NCBI GenBank assembly: GCA_021205755.1
Contig: JAJPWX010000018.1
Location: forward strand, 1-57,306
Source: Lachnospiraceae bacterium
GTDB taxonomy: Bacteria > Bacillota > Clostridia > Lachnospirales > Lachnospiraceae
DNA: 57,306 nt
Reading direction: 5' to 3'
Shown: positions 4,193-15,572 of the stretch, piece after piece
Numbering within the stretch: the stretch's first letter is position 1
How the letters are laid out: the number at the start of each line of letters is the position of its first letter
Notes under the pieces: generated by a model
The model's database searches: none
Told to the model about the DNA's origin: nothing
The model's input: only the letters and a program-made list of their open reading frames with translations
Position numbers and translations under genes: made by a program

Positions 4193-4206
4193 CGAACACA
4201 TGTTCG
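4193..4206 (+). promoter_or_regulatory. LexA (SOS) box of recA
   Basis: CGAACACATGTTCG is a perfect CGAAC-N4-GTTCG palindrome of the Gram-positive LexA/DinR type, placed between the recA -10 and the recA ribosome site. It indicates SOS control of recA and probably recX. Confidence 0.9.
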
Positions 4207-4223: not shown

Positions 4224-5303
4224 ATGGCACAGGATGACAAGTTGAAAGCATTGGATGCTGCATTGACACAGATTGAGAAGCAGTTTGGCAAAGGTGCTGT
4301 GATGAAGCTCGGAGACACGGGCACACGTATGAATATTGAGACTACACCGACCGGCTCATTGAGCCTTGATATCGCATTGGGACTTGGCGGTATACCGAAG
4401 GGACGTATTGTCGAGATTTATGGTCCTGAATCGAGTGGTAAGACAACAGTCGCGCTGCATATGGTGGCTGAGATCCAAAAGCGGGGCGGGATTGCCGGAT
4501 TTATCGATGCGGAACATGCGCTCGACCCAGTGTATGCGAAGAATATTGGGGTAGATATTGATAATCTTTACATATCTCAGCCGGATAATGGTGAGCAGGG
4601 ACTTGAGATTACGGAGACGATGGTTCGTTCCGGTGCAGTTGATATTATTATTGTGGACTCTGTAGCGGCTCTGGTTCCTAAGGCGGAGATTGAGGGCGAT
4701 ATGGGAGATGCACATGTCGGGCTTCAGGCGCGCCTGATGTCGCAGGCACTTCGCAAGCTGACTGGTGTGATCAGCAAATCAAACTGCACGGTGATTTTTA
4801 TCAACCAGCTTCGTGAAAAGGTAGGTGTGATGTATGGTAACCCGGAGACAACGACCGGTGGCCGTGCATTGAAATTTTACTCCTCCATTCGTCTTGATGT
4901 GCGCAGGACAGATTCCCTGAAGCAGAATGGTGAAGTGATTGGAAACCATGTTCGGGTAAGAGTTGTTAAAAATAAGATTGCGCCGCCTTTCAAAGAAGCA
5001 GAATTTGATATCATGTTTGGACAGGGAATTTCACGAGAGGGAGATATCCTTGATTTGGCGGCAAATAATAATATCATTAATAAAAGCGGCGCATGGTATG
5101 CCTATCAGGGGAATAAGATTGGGCAGGGCCGCGAGAATGCCAAGATTTATCTGAAAGAGCATCCGGATGTGATGGAAGAGGTTGATCGTAAAGTACGCCA
5201 GCATTATGGATTGATTGAGGCAGATACTGCTTCAGATAATGCTGCACCAGCTGAGACAATGGATATTGCTGATACCGATGATACGGTCGATGAGATGGAG
5301 TAA
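4224..5303 (+). CDS. recA: Recombinase RecA
   Basis: RecA is the ATP-dependent strand-exchange protein of homologous recombination and the co-protease that triggers LexA self-cleavage. The 359-residue product has Walker A GPESSGKT at residues 67-74, the DAEHALD segment with the catalytic Glu near 97, Walker B IIIVDS near 141-146, the loop-2 region with [12 protein letters not shown], and an acidic C-terminal tail ([13 protein letters not shown]), all as expected. I chose the ATG at 4224 because GGAGG at 4214-4218 is correctly spaced and the protein then begins [14 protein letters not shown]; the in-frame ATG at 4200 lies inside the LexA box. recX follows after 6 bases, so the two are almost certainly cotranscribed. 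Confidence 0.98.
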
Positions 5304-5309
5304 GTCAGT

Positions 5310-5918
5310 ATGGAATGCGTGACTGAGATCAGAAAGCTCTCCGGGGGCAGGTCTCTTGTGCTTCTGGAGAGCGGTCTTCAATTTCCGCTCTATGCCAGAG
5401 AATTGTCTGACTATGGTCTGGAAGAAGGGAATTTTGTTCAGGAAGAGACTGTTTCACGAATTATGGACGAGATTCTTATAAAGCGAGCAAGACTCCGGGC
5501 GATGCATTTGTTGGAGCAGATGAGTCGAACGGAGTTCCAGCTGCGTGAAAAGCTTCGCCAGTCATACTATCCCGATCAGATTATTGAAGATGCTATCCAG
5601 TATGTAAAGGGATATCACTATATTGACGATCTTCGTTATGCGATGAGCTATTTGGAAAATCATGCTTCTGTAAAAAGCCTCCGTCAAATGGAACAGGAGC
5701 TTTACGCAAAAGGTGTAGCGAAAGAACTTGTTGAGCAGGCTGTTTCAGAGAGTGAGCTTCCTGACGAGATGTCGCAGATATTGGCTTTATTAGAAAAGAA
5801 GCACTACGATCTATCCTGTGATGACCGGAAAGAGCAGCAGAGGATGTATGGTTATTTGATGCGCAGAGGATACAGCAGATCTGCTATTTCAAGTGCGCTC
5901 CGTCAAGTAGAAGAATAA
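5310..5918 (+). CDS. recX: Regulatory protein RecX
   Basis: RecX binds RecA filaments and modulates their assembly. The 202-residue product has the RecX core of three-helix repeats: RARLRAMHLLEQMSRTEFQL from about residue 60, then a segment with YIDDLRYAMSYLE near 104-116, then RQMEQELYAKGVAKELVE, and a third repeat ending in YGYLMRRGYSRSAISSAL. Length and motif order fit the long Firmicutes RecX form with an extra N-terminal domain. It starts 6 bases after recA stops, placing it in the SOS-controlled recA operon. The 210 bases after it are AT-rich and hold no gene, only the promoter of the tRNA. Confidence 0.93.
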   Translation: MECVTEIRKLSGGRSLVLLESGLQFPLYARELSDYGLEEGNFVQEETVSRIMDEILIKRARLRAMHLLEQMSRTEFQLREKLRQSYYPDQIIEDAIQYVKGYHYIDDLRYAMSYLENHASVKSLRQMEQELYAKGVAKELVEQAVSESELPDEMSQILALLEKKHYDLSCDDRKEQQRMYGYLMRRGYSRSAISSALRQVEE

Positions 5919-6079
5919 TGCGAATTGAAATAGATGGCTAAAATTAGAAATGATTTCAACATAATATTTTCAAATAAATATAAATACATGTGCATTATTA
6001 TCTGAAAAGCATCCATATGACGAGTAATTGCAAAATAGAAATATGCGCGAAAAGATTTAAAAAAATGCAAAAAAAATGT

Positions 6080-6108
6080 TTGACAAATGAAAGCATTAAG
6101 TATATAAT
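6080..6108 (+). promoter_or_regulatory. tRNA-Arg promoter
   Basis: A perfect TTGACA (6080-6085) and TATAAT (6103-6108) pair with a 17-base spacer lies 20 bases before the mature tRNA. This is a strong constitutive-type promoter, as expected for a stable RNA. Confidence 0.85.
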
Positions 6109-6128
6109 AAGCAATGCTGATGAGGCGT

Positions 6129-6202
6129 GTGCGCATAGCTCAGCTGGATAGAGCGTTTGGCTACGGACCAAAAGGCCGGGGGTTCGAATCCTCTTGCGCA
6201 CG
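6129..6202 (+). tRNA. tRNA-Arg (anticodon ACG)
   Basis: The 74-base cloverleaf has a 7-bp acceptor stem GTGCGCA/TGCGCAC, a D-arm starting GCTC, an anticodon loop CTACGGA giving anticodon ACG (read as ICG, codons CGN), and a T-loop TTCGAAT. No CCA is encoded; a G discriminator ends the gene. A terminator follows at once, so it is a single-gene transcript. Confidence 0.95.
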
Positions 6203-6203
6203 T

Positions 6204-6242
6204 AAAAAGTCGTGATTCAAAATTAGAATCACGGCTTTTTTT
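6204..6242 (+). terminator. Rho-independent terminator of tRNA-Arg
   Basis: The stem AGTCGTGATTC pairs with GAATCACGGCT (one G-T pair), with an AAAATTA-type loop and a run of seven T. Confidence 0.88.
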
Positions 6243-6379
6243 GTGTTTGTGTAAGAATTTTTCAGGCTGACGCCGGACGCTGTCTGCACTGTGAAGGGAA
6301 AACAGGCAGTTCTGCTGATTGTGTCTATTCGATCAGGTCATGGAATGGAATCTGGTGGCAAACGAATGTAAAACATGCA

Positions 6380-6393
6380 CGAACGTGCGTTCG
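6380..6393 (+). promoter_or_regulatory. LexA (SOS) box 1 of the small membrane protein
   Basis: CGAACGTGCGTTCG is a perfect CGAAC-N4-GTTCG box. It sits 9 bases upstream of the -35 of the promoter at 6403-6431, with the same core as the recA box. Confidence 0.88.
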
Positions 6394-6402
6394 AAAAAAT
6401 GC

Positions 6403-6431
6403 TTGCATTGTGAAGCGGTATGTATTATAAT
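6403..6431 (+). promoter_or_regulatory. Promoter of the SOS-linked membrane protein
   Basis: TTGCAT (6403-6408) and a perfect TATAAT (6426-6431) are separated by 17 bases. LexA-type boxes lie on both sides. Confidence 0.82.
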
Positions 6432-6442
6432 ACGCAACAAGG

Positions 6443-6456
6443 AGAACAGATGTTCT
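6443..6456 (+). promoter_or_regulatory. LexA-type box 2, downstream of the promoter
   Basis: AGAACAGATGTTCT has the GAAC-N4-GTTC core, with A/T instead of C/G at its outer edges. It begins 12 bases after the -10, the same place as the recA box. Confidence 0.75.
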
Positions 6457-6487
6457 ACTATAAACCGTGTACATTATGGAGGCATAT

Positions 6488-6787
6488 ATGAAAAGAAAAT
6501 CTGAAAAACAGGAAATTTATCGGACACTGACACAGGCTGGTATTGTGTTGTGCGCTATTTTGGGGCTCGGGTTTGAAATACTGCTATTCTTGGTGATAGG
6601 GATTCATTTCCTTGAAGTCTCAGTGGTTATTCTTGGATTTCTGTGGCTGCTTTCAGGCATTCTGGTTTCCGGTGCGCTTCGCCTGGCAGCGTCGGTTCAG
6701 GATAAAATAAAGAGAAATCGATTATTTCATGTTGTACGATTGGCTCTGGGAACCGAACGACGGGTTATTTGTCGAACTGCTTGTTAA
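6488..6787 (+). CDS. Small two-helix membrane protein, predicted SOS-induced
   Basis: I do not recognise this 99-residue protein. It has a short charged N-terminus (MKRKSEKQEIYRTLTQ), two hydrophobic helices at about 16-38 and 44-66, then a basic tail (QDKIKRNRLFHVVRLALGTERR) ending near two cysteines. Both ends are probably cytoplasmic. The ATG at 6488 is chosen because GGAGG (6478-6482) precedes it at 5 bases; the earlier in-frame ATG at 6467 has no ribosome site. A strong promoter bracketed by two LexA-type boxes lies just upstream and recA-recX is close by, so DNA-damage induction is a firm prediction. The role is open: SOS-induced division inhibitors of other Firmicutes (YneA type) are also small membrane proteins, but those have one helix and often a LysM domain, which is absent here. 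Confidence 0.8.
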   Translation: MKRKSEKQEIYRTLTQAGIVLCAILGLGFEILLFLVIGIHFLEVSVVILGFLWLLSGILVSGALRLAASVQDKIKRNRLFHVVRLALGTERRVICRTAC

Positions 6788-6882
6788 ACAGGGATTGCAG
6801 ATGGAATTTTTCTGTGATAGAATTTGTTTAGATGGCCGGAGGCCATATACTAAAAAAATGTAAGCAGGAAAAGGTGGAGAGT

Positions 6883-7473
6883 ATGCAAAGCACAGTGACA
6901 AGAGATGAAGCGTTTGCGCTTCTGCAGCAATATAATCAAGAGCATTTTCATATTCAGCATGCGTTGACAGTGGAGGGAACGATGCGGTGGTATGCGAAAG
7001 AGCTTGGATATGGTGAAGATGAGGAGTATTGGGGTATTGTCGGACTCCTGCATGATATAGATTTTGAATTGTTTCCGGATCAGCATTGTCAGAAAGCACC
7101 GGAACTCTTGCGGGCAGGCGGAGTGAGTGAAGAGATGATTTACTCTATATGCAGCCATGGTTATGGGATTTGCTGTGACCTTGAGCCCAAGCATGAAATG
7201 GAAAAAGTCTTATTTGCGGCGGATGAACTGACGGGATTGATTGGTGCGGCCGCAAAGATGCGCCCATCTAAGAGCGTGATGGACATGGAAGTATCCAGTC
7301 TGAAAAAGAAGTTTAAGGATAAGAAGTTTGCTGCAGGATGCTCGCGCGATGTGATTCGTACGGGGGCAGAACGCCTGGGATGGTCATTAGAAGAATTGAT
7401 GGAGAAAACGATTCTTGCCATGCGTTCCTGCGAAGCTTCGATCAACGATTATATGAGCACAGCGTTTAGCTGA
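6883..7473 (+). CDS. HD-domain phosphohydrolase-like protein
   Basis: This 196-residue protein belongs to the HD/HDIG metal-dependent hydrolase group. The metal ligands can be read in order: His near 26 (HIQHAL), His-Asp at 57-58 (GLLHDIDFE), a later His (CSHGYG) and Asp (LFAADELTGLI). Such proteins usually hydrolyse phosphomonoesters or phosphodiesters of nucleotides; the substrate here cannot be told. The start at 6883 is preferred because AAGGTGGAG precedes it; the in-frame ATG 51 bases upstream lacks a site. It lies 95 bases after the SOS-linked membrane protein with no clear terminator between, so it may share that transcript. Confidence 0.82.
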   Translation: MQSTVTRDEAFALLQQYNQEHFHIQHALTVEGTMRWYAKELGYGEDEEYWGIVGLLHDIDFELFPDQHCQKAPELLRAGGVSEEMIYSICSHGYGICCDLEPKHEMEKVLFAADELTGLIGAAAKMRPSKSVMDMEVSSLKKKFKDKKFAAGCSRDVIRTGAERLGWSLEELMEKTILAMRSCEASINDYMSTAFS

Positions 7474-11397: not shown

Positions 11398-14028
11398 GTG
11401 TCGAAGAAAAGGCTGAGAAAGATAGAGCTGGAGAAGAGAACTGCAAAGAAAAGAAGACGAAGAATTGCTCTGATCACTATGGTTGGAATTCTACTCGCAG
11501 GAGTTGAGAATTGTCTGCTTCTGCCATACGGAAAGGATAATGTTGCAGGAGCGGGGAGATTGTGGAATGTATCTGAGGGACAAGTATGGAGTGAGACAGA
11601 GACAGAATCTGAAAATGAATATTTTTTTGAATATGACGGCGAAACAGAAGGCGAAGCGGGAAAGGAGATGGAATCTGACAGCGAAATAGAAAGTGAATTG
11701 GAGAGCGAGACTGAGACAGAAAGCGAAACAGAGACAGAAAGCGAAACAGAGACAGAAAGCGAGGCAGAGATCGAGACAGAAACAGAGGGTGTGACAGAGA
11801 CGGAAACGGAGACCGAAAGCGAGAGCGAGCCGGAAGTAGAGAGCGAGACAGAGACGGAAAGCGAGAGTGAGACAGAGGCGGGGAGCGAAACAGAGGCAGA
11901 AAGCGAGATGGAGACCGAGAGCGAGGCCGAGACAGAGTGCGAGACAGAGTGCGAGACAGAAAAAGAATCAGAAAATGTTGTAGAAACGGAAACAGATAAT
12001 AAGACAGAAGTAGAATCAAATAGTGAGTCTAAATTGGGAAATGAATCTGAGATTCAGACGGAAACAAATTCTGAGAGTGACATGATAAAAGAAACGGAAT
12101 TACAGGCAGGCTGCGAGACCATAGAGCGTGGGGTGCATTATGAAATAACAGGGGATGCACAGTCCTGGTATCGTGATAACAATGGTTTATTGTGGATTAA
12201 AACGGGGACTGCGGTTTATGCAGAGCCGATTTCAGGCAGTGGTTATAATACAGGAAGCAGCCTGGAAAATCTGACAGTGGATGGTATTTTTTCTTTTCGC
12301 TTAAAGAAGATTAAAAAAGATGGCTCCGTTACAAAAGAGTCATCTCTTCAGGAAGAAAAGTATTACGTTGATGGAGAAGCTCCGTCTGCACGATTTCAGA
12401 CATCCGGAAACCAATTGGGTGAAATAGTATATGCTGCGGGAAGCTGTTCGGTTTCCTTTACTGTAGAGCCAGATGGGAAGAGCGGTCTCAAAGGAACTTT
12501 CTATAAAGTGCTGCCTTGTGACGTAAATGGAAGTGTAATGGAAAACGCGGAAACGGTAGCCTGGACAGACAGCAATTCCATGGCTTCAATTTCGATTTCC
12601 GAGGAAGGGTTGTTCCGGGTTTATGTGAAAACGGTAGATATGGTAGGCAATGTTGCCTATTCTCGAAGCAGCGTAATTTGTGTGGATGGTACCGCACCGG
12701 TTATCACGATTTCAGGAGTAGAGGAACAGACAGCAAATTCGGGCAGCGTATGTCTATTGATAAGCTGTACGGATGCCTGGTATAAGACCGGATCTTTACA
12801 GGTGAGTATTACAGGGGCAAATCAGAGAAATATGCCTGCTCTGAAAGAGAGAGCAGACAGTGATACTGGCGCATGGATAGAATACTATGATTTTCCTCAA
12901 TCTCTGAGTTATGATGATATCTATACGATCTCAGTGACAGCAGAGGATTTGACAGGAAATATTGGTTGTAAAACCATACAGTTTTCTATAAATCGTTTTG
13001 GATCTGCTTATGATTTATCAGAAGAAACCAAGACTATACTGGAACAGTACTTTCTCTCTGAAGCCTGTGATGTGGTGTTTTATGAAACAAATATTGATTA
13101 TGTGGGAGAGTCTTTCATTTACTGCAGACACGATGGAATTCTAAGGGAGCTCACAGCTGGGGTCGAATACCAGGTAACAATGGAAGGCAGTGAATCAACA
13201 TGGAAGCGGTATTGCTATACTGTACCAGCGAGATATTTCTCTCAGGAGGGTGTATATGAACTGTTGCTTGTGTCGCAGGATATGGCGCAGAACCAGAGCG
13301 ATACCGGGATGCAACAGAAAAGAGTCACATTTGTTATAGACTGGAGTGCCCCTACATGTACAATAAGTGGGATAAAAAATGGAGAAATATACGAAGGAGA
13401 GACAGTGACCGCATTTGTGATTCCGAGTGATAATCTGGGACTGAGTTGCCTTCGAATTTATCATAACAGTGAATTGTTTTTTGAAAATAAGAATCAGCCG
13501 GTATCCGGAGAAGCGATAAAAATCATGCTGGAAAACAGCCGGGAGTGGCAGACACTGCAGGTGTGGCTGTGCGATATGGCGGGGAATGAATATTGGAGTG
13601 ACGAAATTCCGGTATTTATCAGCAATGGGGAAGAAAACGTTCCTGCTTATGAAAAGATTCGAAAAAGTGCAATGGAGTTGGCCGAGGAAGCGGCCGCATC
13701 GCAAGACGCAGATGATGTGGAAAAATCTTACAGTGAGCCAAATGAACAGAATGGAGAAGAAACAGAGTCAATGGAGGATAACGACATAATAGGGGAGGAT
13801 ACTTCCTTAGAGAGTGTGTCCGCAGAAGGTTCAGAGAATGGGTTGTCCACTGGGGGTGCCGTTGATACACAGTATTCCGGGGGAGCCAGAACAATGTCAG
13901 ACGGAGAGGGAGTTTTGACAAAAAACAGTGATAAAAGAGCTGGCTGGATTATGCTGGCAATTGGTTTTGTTATATTTACTGCAACGATATTTTCTGTATC
14001 CCCGATTTTCGGAAGAAGATTCAAATAG
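11398..14028 (+). CDS. Large surface protein with Glu/Thr/Ser repeat stalk and Ig-like domains, anchored at both ends
   Basis: I do not recognise a named family. The 876-residue protein has a very basic N-terminus, a helix at about 22-43, then about 170 residues made almost only of Glu, Thr and Ser in units such as ETESETE (about 65-235). The rest is beta-rich with at least two Ig-like modules recognisable by DGTAPVITISG and WSAPTCTISG, typical of bacterial Ig-like repeats. A second acidic stretch precedes a C-terminal helix (GWIMLAIGFVIFTATIF) and basic end. The start is GTG with GGAGGAAG before it. It lies 45 bases after the kinase, so it is probably in the same operon and could be a ligand, partner or substrate of it. 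The acidic repeat is likely an extended stalk and may be O-glycosylated; both are inference. Confidence 0.82.
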   Translation: MSKKRLRKIELEKRTAKKRRRRIALITMVGILLAGVENCLLLPYGKDNVAGAGRLWNVSEGQVWSETETESENEYFFEYDGETEGEAGKEMESDSEIESELESETETESETETESETETESEAEIETETEGVTETETETESESEPEVESETETESESETEAGSETEAESEMETESEAETECETECETEKESENVVETETDNKTEVESNSESKLGNESEIQTETNSESDMIKETELQAGCETIERGVHYEITGDAQSWYRDNNGLLWIKTGTAVYAEPISGSGYNTGSSLENLTVDGIFSFRLKKIKKDGSVTKESSLQEEKYYVDGEAPSARFQTSGNQLGEIVYAAGSCSVSFTVEPDGKSGLKGTFYKVLPCDVNGSVMENAETVAWTDSNSMASISISEEGLFRVYVKTVDMVGNVAYSRSSVICVDGTAPVITISGVEEQTANSGSVCLLISCTDAWYKTGSLQVSITGANQRNMPALKERADSDTGAWIEYYDFPQSLSYDDIYTISVTAEDLTGNIGCKTIQFSINRFGSAYDLSEETKTILEQYFLSEACDVVFYETNIDYVGESFIYCRHDGILRELTAGVEYQVTMEGSESTWKRYCYTVPARYFSQEGVYELLLVSQDMAQNQSDTGMQQKRVTFVIDWSAPTCTISGIKNGEIYEGETVTAFVIPSDNLGLSCLRIYHNSELFFENKNQPVSGEAIKIMLENSREWQTLQVWLCDMAGNEYWSDEIPVFISNGEENVPAYEKIRKSAMELAEEAAASQDADDVEKSYSEPNEQNGEETESMEDNDIIGEDTSLESVSAEGSENGLSTGGAVDTQYSGGARTMSDGEGVLTKNSDKRAGWIMLAIGFVIFTATIFSVSPIFGRRFK
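11702..12000 (+). repeat. Imperfect GA-rich coding repeat (Glu/Thr/Ser codons)
   Basis: Units of 6 to 18 bases built on GAGACAGAAAGCGAA are repeated many times, best preserved at 11707-11762. All units are multiples of three, so gain or loss would change stalk length without a frameshift. Confidence 0.85.
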
Positions 14029-14084
14029 ACATTTTGTCTTAAGTGTGTTATGATGCCCCGTGAAGGGGTGAGATATAAATAATT

Positions 14085-15572
14085 ATGAGGAAGACGAGGA
14101 ATATAATAAAGCGCAACAGTGGATTTGTGGTTGGATGCGTTTTAGTCGCTGGAGCCTCTTTCCTTACGGTAGATTTATTCCTGTCGGATGTTCTGTCGGC
14201 GGAGATGTTTATGGAAAATCCTTCTGAGGAAGAAAATACGGAGGTAGTGTCAGAAGAGTTAATTTCCATTCCGGATGAGACAGAGGACATTCGAACCTAT
14301 CAGACGGATGCTTTTACTGTTACAGCTTCTGGCGAAATCGAAGATGGTATAGAGACAGAAGAAAGCGACGAGGAAGAGACGGAAACAGAGACTGAATTGG
14401 AATCGGAGACAGAGACAGAATCGGAGTCGGAAGAGGAGACGGAACCGGAATCAGAAACTGAGTCAGAAACCATGACGGAAACGGGCGATGAGGCAGAACA
14501 GGAGACAGAAGAACCTGAGACAAAGGGAGCGACGGGGTCTGAGAAAACTACAGTAAAGACAGAAACCAATAATGATACCGAGACGGATTCTCCAGCTAGT
14601 GCAAGTACGGGGAGTACTTTATACTCTACAGAAAGCAGTGAATCAAGTTCCAAAGGAAGCGGCACAAGCACTACAGGAAGTAGTACAAGCACTACAGGAA
14701 GCAGTACGAGCAGCGGAAGCAGTGCAAACACTACAGGAAGTAATTCGAGTTCTGCAAATATAAATGCTGGTAGTACAGCTGGCGTGAGCAGTGGGAAGAA
14801 TACAGGCAGCATCAGTTCTTCAGACAATGGAAACACCGCGAACAGCGGAAGCAGTACGAGTACCGGGAGCAGCACGAACAGCGGAAGCAGCACGAACAGC
14901 GGAAGCAGTACGAGCAGCGGAAGCAGCACGAACAGCGGAAGCAGCACGAACAGCGGAAGCAGCACGAACAGCGGAAGCAGTACGAGCAGCGGAGGCAGCA
15001 CGAGTACCGGGAGCAGCACGAGCACCGCCAGCAGCAGTTCCAGCAGTGTAAACGATGGATGGGTAGTCGTGGATTCGGATGATAATATTACGATCTGGAC
15101 TTATCAGGGTTCGAGCAGTTCTGCTGCAAGCAGCTCAAGTACGGGAAGCTCAAGTACGGGAAGCTCAAGTACGGGAAGCTCCAGTTCGAGCAGCTCAAGT
15201 ACGGGAAGCTCTGGCACGGGCAGTTCCAGTTCAAGCAGCTCCAGTTCAGGAAGTTCCGGTTCGACTTCATCTGCTACGACGGCTAGCGATTCTGATACAA
15301 TTATTTCCGGAATCAGCAGCCGATATATCAGCGAAAGTGAATTATACGGTTATAGTCTGAGTGAGCTTCGCATTATTCGAAATGAAATTTTTGCGCTGCA
15401 CGGAAGAATGTTTGATTCGGAGGATTTACAGGAGTATTTTAACCAGAAGTCCTGGTATACGGCACTTTACACTCCGGAAGAATTTGATGCCAATATGTTC
15501 TCTTATCTGAACGAGTATGAGAAAGCGAATTTGAATGTAATTCTCGCTTATGAAGAATCAATAGGTGGCTGA
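14085..15572 (+). CDS. Membrane-anchored protein with Ser/Thr/Gly stalk and C-terminal YARHG domain
   Basis: The 495-residue protein has a basic start, one helix at about 12-32, an acidic Glu/Thr/Ser tract (about 90-160), then about 250 residues of Ser, Gly, Thr and Asn in short repeats such as GSSTNS and GSSST. The last 80 residues form a YARHG domain (LSELRIIRNEIFALHGRMF, then YFNQKSWYTAL), an extracellular module found on many Firmicutes surface proteins; its binding partner is unknown. The ATG at 14085 is preceded by AAGGGGTG at 14 bases, which is rather far, and that site lies in a small hairpin (CCCC/GGGG, 14056-14068), so translation may be weak or controlled. It lies 56 bases after the previous ectodomain gene. 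Confidence 0.85.
   Translation: MRKTRNIIKRNSGFVVGCVLVAGASFLTVDLFLSDVLSAEMFMENPSEEENTEVVSEELISIPDETEDIRTYQTDAFTVTASGEIEDGIETEESDEEETETETELESETETESESEEETEPESETESETMTETGDEAEQETEEPETKGATGSEKTTVKTETNNDTETDSPASASTGSTLYSTESSESSSKGSGTSTTGSSTSTTGSSTSSGSSANTTGSNSSSANINAGSTAGVSSGKNTGSISSSDNGNTANSGSSTSTGSSTNSGSSTNSGSSTSSGSSTNSGSSTNSGSSTNSGSSTSSGGSTSTGSSTSTASSSSSSVNDGWVVVDSDDNITIWTYQGSSSSAASSSSTGSSSTGSSSTGSSSSSSSSTGSSGTGSSSSSSSSSGSSGSTSSATTASDSDTIISGISSRYISESELYGYSLSELRIIRNEIFALHGRMFDSEDLQEYFNQKSWYTALYTPEEFDANMFSYLNEYEKANLNVILAYEESIGG
14841..15030 (+). repeat. Tandem 18-bp coding repeat (GSSTNS/GSSTSS)
   Basis: About ten near-identical copies of an 18-base unit such as AGCAGCACGAACAGCGGA run head to tail and differ mainly at two codons (AAC/AGC). 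Several neighbouring copies are identical, which suggests recent slippage or conversion. Confidence 0.9.
15129..15260 (+). repeat. Tandem 15-bp coding repeat (GSSST)
   Basis: The unit AGCTCAAGTACGGGA is repeated perfectly about three times from 15135 and then degrades into AGTTCCAGC-type units coding Ser and Gly. Confidence 0.85.

Follow-up and report, generated by a model that had tools for sequence, protein, structure and literature searches.

Between two LexA-type boxes on a contig of a Lachnospiraceae bacterium lies the promoter of a gene encoding a small membrane protein with two predicted helices. This arrangement raises two questions: whether LexA controls the gene and, if so, what an SOS-induced protein of this shape would do in the cell. 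We examined the locus in a window of 57,306 nucleotides (the whole stretch of DNA that was analyzed), in 47 genomes of the same genus, and in a sample of 397 genomes from across the taxonomic family.

Promoter and operators in the window

The gene occupies positions 6488..6787 on the forward strand (start codon ATG at 6488; stop codon included, at 6785-6787). The first LexA-type box (CGAACGTGCGTTCG, 6380..6393) lies 9 bp 5' of a -35 hexamer, TTGCAT (6403..6408, forward strand), the TTGC of which is kept in relatives, and the second (AGAACAGATGTTCT, 6443..6456) lies just 3' of the expected transcription start; neither box is assigned to a strand. A 17-bp spacer separates the -35 hexamer from a -10 hexamer, TATAAT (6426..6431, forward strand), and the gene has a ribosome-binding site, GGAGG (6478..6482, forward strand), that reads GGAGGC in close relatives too. 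The original prediction that two boxes bracket the promoter is borne out, as both are exact and lie where it placed them. Its description of a good promoter holds for the presence of TTGCAT-N17-TATAAT, but TTGCAT matches only three of the six positions of the sigma-70 -35 consensus, and for this reason the promoter was missed by a promoter scan.

Exact GAACN4GTTC sites number three in the window against 0.88 expected, with at least three in 7 of 100 shuffles, and 31 in the genome as a whole against 39 for a reversed control pattern. Single sites of this kind mean little; the paired box is the unusual signal. One further exact LexA-type box, again without strand, lies outside the gene, ahead of the neighboring recA (4194..4205; likely recA start, ATG at 4224). 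The recA-recX neighborhood that had been pointed out is present in the window but is not general, since recX was found at only three of the 29 family loci described below (L005-L007), a count that covers up to 1.5 kb upstream (for L009 and L014, about 0.55 kb). An operon with recX was considered and rejected because a tRNA-Arg (6128-6203) and a terminator-like hairpin after it (6204..6240, forward strand) separate recX from the promoter. Two long frames elsewhere in the window (11398-15572) contain many Glu-Thr and Ser-Gly repeats and probably encode surface or secreted proteins.

Distribution of the family and conservation of its boxes

A search of a protein database with the single sequence returned two matches, the protein itself and one relative of 88% identity, and profile searches reached 14 and 19 proteins. 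Six-frame searching of the genus yielded matches at E <= 0.1 in 33 of the 47 genomes, of which 29 were accepted (L005-L033); the search listed 40 places, and 11 of these (L034 and ten without a locus) were discarded by eye as unrelated, mostly long frames. A profile built from 22 rows of the 29 (A1) recovered the same 29 genomes with a single match each at E <= 0.01. Together with a highly divergent copy, L185 in G025, which has no profile match and was accepted for the shape of its promoter and its two-helix appearance, relatives are present in 30 of the 47 genomes. For genomes in which the profile had no match, the usual site was inspected in eight stretches and no copy was seen, two of the stretches having little upstream sequence (L236 in G006 and L240 in G045).

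Among the 397 genomes, 13 matched at E <= 0.01: two belong to the same genus, four are look-alikes from other genera, and seven seem unrelated (L051-L057, discarded by eye). In this sample, the family is close to genus-restricted. The look-alikes (L047-L050; best match 1.8e-8, in G369) were not counted as members; they lack an exact LexA box, and the only box with one mismatch close to a match is inside the frame of L050. They are short two-helix proteins with a similar GLxxE...P...LW pattern and may be distantly related to the family but differ in role. YneA is present in G127 and G161; the remaining two of the four genomes are outside the YneA sample. The genus, whose GTDB label we take to be Clostridium_Q, seems to include Clostridium fessum, as a database protein so named (P0006) is the sequence encoded by L032 (G024); NCBI places C. 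fessum in Clostridiaceae, and other members are named Lachnospiraceae bacterium.

The expectation that the protein fits no SOS family was upheld by the annotation searches. The protein had no Pfam match at E <= 1 and three NCBIfam matches far below cut-off, and members of the alignments A1 and A5 gave weak Pfam matches only and none in PHROGs or PADLOC. Nothing convincing emerged from the solved structures that were searched, and we recognized no description of the family in the open-access literature.

Boxes were counted within 250 bp upstream of 28 members, L025 being omitted because its frame reaches the end of the contig. An exact box was found in 22 members, a box with at most one mismatch in 27, two or more boxes with at most one mismatch in 23, and two or more exact boxes in 18. 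Among 219 control upstream regions, drawn from open reading frames of at least 200 aa with the HAD genes left out, the corresponding figures for the first three classes were 1, 22, and 1. The box-promoter-box layout recurs in 20 of the 28 testable members under a promoter pattern that was written after seeing these promoters, and several members have a third box 13 bp past the second. Two exact boxes in the double arrangement (N{38,60}) occur at 19 places in 16 of the 47 genomes; 16 of the 19 belong to the two-helix gene, one per genome, and the other places are L091 (a radical-SAM gene by eye), L085 (which adjoins an HTH-like gene), and G012:C165. A control double-box pattern had no match in any of the 47 genomes. 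Relatives are thus nearly always, rather than always, behind LexA boxes: over 330 bp, neither L020 nor L025 has a box even when one mismatch is allowed, making them the two of 29 members found outside a LexA context, and L018 has one box only, with a mismatch.

Could these boxes have arisen by chance on an unremarkable membrane gene and been retained by recent common descent alone? The genome-wide count of single sites, no higher than that of the control, is compatible with this, as is the box with at most one mismatch in about one in ten control regions. We nevertheless regard it as very improbable, given that box positions are kept even where protein identity to the window copy drops to 23-55%, that one group carries its third box 13 bp further on, and that the control double-box pattern is unmatched.

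That the boxes are those of LexA is indicated by the genes behind them elsewhere. Across the taxonomic family, the double box occurs in 39 of 397 genomes, compared with 16 genomes with control matches. Inspection of 29 double-box loci from other genera identified five as lexA/yneA, ten as radical-SAM-like, and one as recA (named by eye); the remaining 13 were not recognized as SOS genes. An exact box lies just upstream of recA at six of eight named loci. In the genus, lexA is present in 46 of the 47 genomes, and AAACN4GTTT is found at 30 of 30 inspected lexA promoters compared with 4 of 1,000 random windows. Conservation of the boxes family-wide and the recurrence of the motif at recA, lexA/yneA, and the radical-SAM gene in other genera agree with the predicted regulation, and on these sequence grounds LexA very probably controls the two-helix gene.

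Three further observations concern the LexA boxes of other genes. The genus lexA box, AAACN4GTTT (L130-L159), differs from the GAACN4GTTC of the two-helix gene and is perhaps weaker. The radical-SAM-like protein (about 440-480 aa, with CxxxCxxC, by eye) is a likely SOS gene in its own right, found at L105, L106, L108, L112, L114, L116, L117, L122, L125, and L127 in other genera and at L091 in the genus. In G031, G033, and G036 (L187, L189, and L192), an exact LexA box with AAAA after it precedes a topoisomerase-III-like gene (by eye).

Protein features and genomic neighborhood

The product has the 99 codons, two helices, and basic tail that had been described. Two hydrophobic segments, basic ends, and a nearly uncharged loop predict a topology with both termini inside (mean K+R over 40 sequences: 7.75 in the N-terminal part, 0.68 in the loop, and 6.9 in the tail). 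The AF2 models, of low confidence (pLDDT 66, pTM 0.33-0.34), likewise show two helices. The window protein is marked by a stripe on helix 1 (L14, G18, C22, G26, and E30, spaced four residues apart and hence on one face), by F51-L52-W53 on helix 2, and by a C-terminus of T-A-C. Over 41 sequences, L14 and W53 are invariant (41/41), followed by G26 (39), G18 and C22 (38 each), T15 and L52 (37 each), and F51 (36). Glutamate is at position 30 in 32 of the 41 and, in the rows read, at 29 or 30 in all except L007; proline is at position 45 in 35 of the 41, where the window protein has serine.

The C-terminus ends in A[ACS] in 16 of 28 members and in one of 255 open reading frames of 200 aa or more from the members' genomes, a contrast in which the background proteins are longer and mostly soluble, and in which a binomial comparison is overstated because the members, and some background frames, share ancestry. 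The same ending is found in 8 of 12 further metagenomic members, while 12 of the 28 do not have it. Tags encoded by tmRNA end in LALAA, LAYAA, or LAIAA at all 17 loci scanned (30 fetched; one with an extra doubtful call), and that of G000 is AEDNLALAA. The tail thus resembles the local SsrA tag and may act as a degron.

The family is present as one copy per genome (29/29), mostly at syntenic loci. At 26 of the 29 loci a common neighbor lies downstream, which is HAD-phosphatase-like at 16, an HD-domain gene at five, and Amt-like at five (HD named from Pfam; HAD and Amt by eye); L018 and L020 lack these neighbors, and L025 stops at a contig end that hides the downstream gene. In L016 and L031 the two-helix frame overlaps the HAD-phosphatase-like gene, which suggests co-transcription of the two in those species.

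These neighbors, with an amidase and a beta-lactamase-fold gene nearby, would fit an SOS-induced accessory protein for another envelope process, tied to its neighbors as a peptidoglycan factor, protease adaptor, or transporter partner. Most neighbors, however, appear to have a promoter-like sequence of their own past the stop codon (by eye, unscored), the overlap is confined to L016 and L031, and the HAD and HD genes occur without a two-helix gene between them in G031, G033, G036, and G043. An accessory role of this kind appears rather unlikely.

Another possibility is a membrane toxin. TisB of Escherichia coli is a LexA-controlled small membrane peptide, a 29-residue toxin with antisense RNA control, and a protein acting in the same manner would oligomerize as a hairpin, depolarize the membrane, and slow growth, leading to tolerance with no specific block of division. 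The double operators suggest the tight repression expected of such a toxin, the protein is small and hydrophobic, and the glutamate of helix 1 could line a pore. The family differs from TisB, however, in its length of about 75-190 aa and in its surroundings: Rfam matches at E <= 0.1 in 5900-7000 were to tRNA only, leaving no known antitoxin RNA. The single, mostly syntenic copy and the strong retention of specific residues, foremost W53, also argue against a toxin, as do the searches of mobile elements, in which the window protein alone, a query of limited reach, found nothing among 50,697 records of phages and 72,556 of plasmids and the alignment nothing in PHROGs or PADLOC. We judge a toxin of this type to be unlikely.

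YneA in the genus and the proposed function

A YneA profile (A2) was built from five YneA proteins of other genera. Of the 149 genomes searched from other genera, 123 have full-length YneA at E <= 1.8e-8 (133 match at E <= 0.01), but only one of the 47 genus genomes does, leaving 46 in which it was not found. At E <= 0.01, 41 of the 47 match the profile, and only the match in G045 is strong (2e-19); the others reach 7e-6 at best, cover mainly the LysM part, lie in frames mostly of 200-600 aa, and were set aside as LysM-only. A few short frames among them (95 and 123 aa) may be diverged YneA. The YneA of G045 (G045:C226; L160, L199) shares a 5-kb contig with a second lexA, possibly contamination or an acquired pair. 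Inspection of 30 lexA loci, from the 46 genomes with lexA, revealed no YneA beside lexA at any of them, four having less than 0.6 kb upstream. In the genome of the window itself, lexA (C135:33021-33617) does not adjoin the two-helix gene (C103:6488-6784).

Neither protein was detected in 16 of the 47 genomes, including seven that are more than 95% complete (G007, G008, G010, G014, G017, G020, and G031). The loss of YneA and the gain of the family may each be a single event on the stem of the genus, so that the contrast is one between clades and not a repeated correlation. The two proteins show no sign of homology, with an hhalign probability of 1.2% in a profile-profile comparison and no LysM match in the two-helix protein.

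We propose that the gene encodes a short-lived, LexA-repressed checkpoint effector of the inner membrane, most likely a reversible division inhibitor acting in YneA's stead, and give this reading an even chance. A checkpoint role as such is probable; inhibition of division in particular is evenly balanced. The division-inhibitor reading fits because YneA has apparently been lost and because the tail resembles a degron. LexA dimers on the two operators, one 5' of the -35 hexamer and one at the transcription start, would hold the gene off until RecA-driven cleavage of LexA switched it on. The product would be a small inner-membrane hairpin with a basic N-terminus inside, helix 1, an outside loop of about eight residues, helix 2, and a cytosolic tail. 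The stripe of helix 1 and the F-L-W of helix 2 might bind a partner in the membrane, with a late component of the divisome being most likely, such that division would be held during DNA repair. With its SsrA-like ending (A-A, A-C, or A-S), the protein would be open to degradation by cytosolic AAA+ proteases of the ClpXP or FtsH type, in which case the block would be removed quickly after LexA returns.

According to PMC13396833, small membrane proteins that target FtsW or late division are widespread, and according to PMC3998124, SOS and division control may have become linked on several occasions in Gram-positives. Two points count against a division inhibitor. In the account of PMC13396833, the YneA helix alone does not block division and the outside LysM domain is needed, whereas the two-helix protein has no outside domain. 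The known SOS division inhibitors of Gram-positives have one helix and commonly adjoin lexA (PMC6851548), and the two-helix gene differs in both respects.

Comparison with individual systems shows both likenesses and differences. The yneA genes of Bacillus subtilis and Lachnospiraceae share a promoter flanked by LexA boxes (five double-box loci), and YneA shares small size, a membrane location, and rapid removal after repair, the last being proposed for the two-helix protein. YneA, however, has one helix and an outside LysM domain, and its gene adjoins lexA rather than HAD or HD genes. SosA of Staphylococcus aureus resembles the two-helix protein as a short, LexA-controlled membrane protein without LysM, and its stability is described as governed by its C-terminus, turnover of which controls SosA (PMC6851548). 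It differs in having one helix, an outside C-terminus proposed as a CtpA substrate, and a position beside lexA, whereas the C-terminus of the two-helix protein is predicted to be inside. SidA of Caulobacter is a single helix. SidA and ChiZ of Mycobacterium are described as small, damage-induced membrane inhibitors of division that act on FtsW/FtsN or late division (PMC13396833), and ChiZ as a single helix that also carries LysM (PMC6851548). Both are set apart from the two-helix protein by description. SulA of E. coli inhibits FtsZ polymerization and is not a membrane protein. It resembles the proposed effector in that its SOS division block is ended by cytosolic AAA+ proteolysis, by Lon (PMC13396833).

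Taken further, an undescribed family of two-helix SOS checkpoint proteins may have replaced the function of YneA in one Lachnospiraceae genus, carrying a mimic of the SsrA tag and acting inside the membrane without LysM. The damage-induced block of division would then begin when LexA is cleaved and be ended by the cytosolic proteases that also clear stalled products. We consider this broader scenario plausible, at somewhat less than an even chance. SOS division inhibitors of Gram-positives have often been noticed through their position beside lexA, and searches for double operators bring up candidate SOS effectors that go unnoticed in ordinary homology searches. The family would test whether a helix hairpin alone stops septation. 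If the proposal is true, a division brake can be exchanged for an unrelated protein, and the family would offer a handle on the survival of DNA damage in gut Lachnospiraceae.
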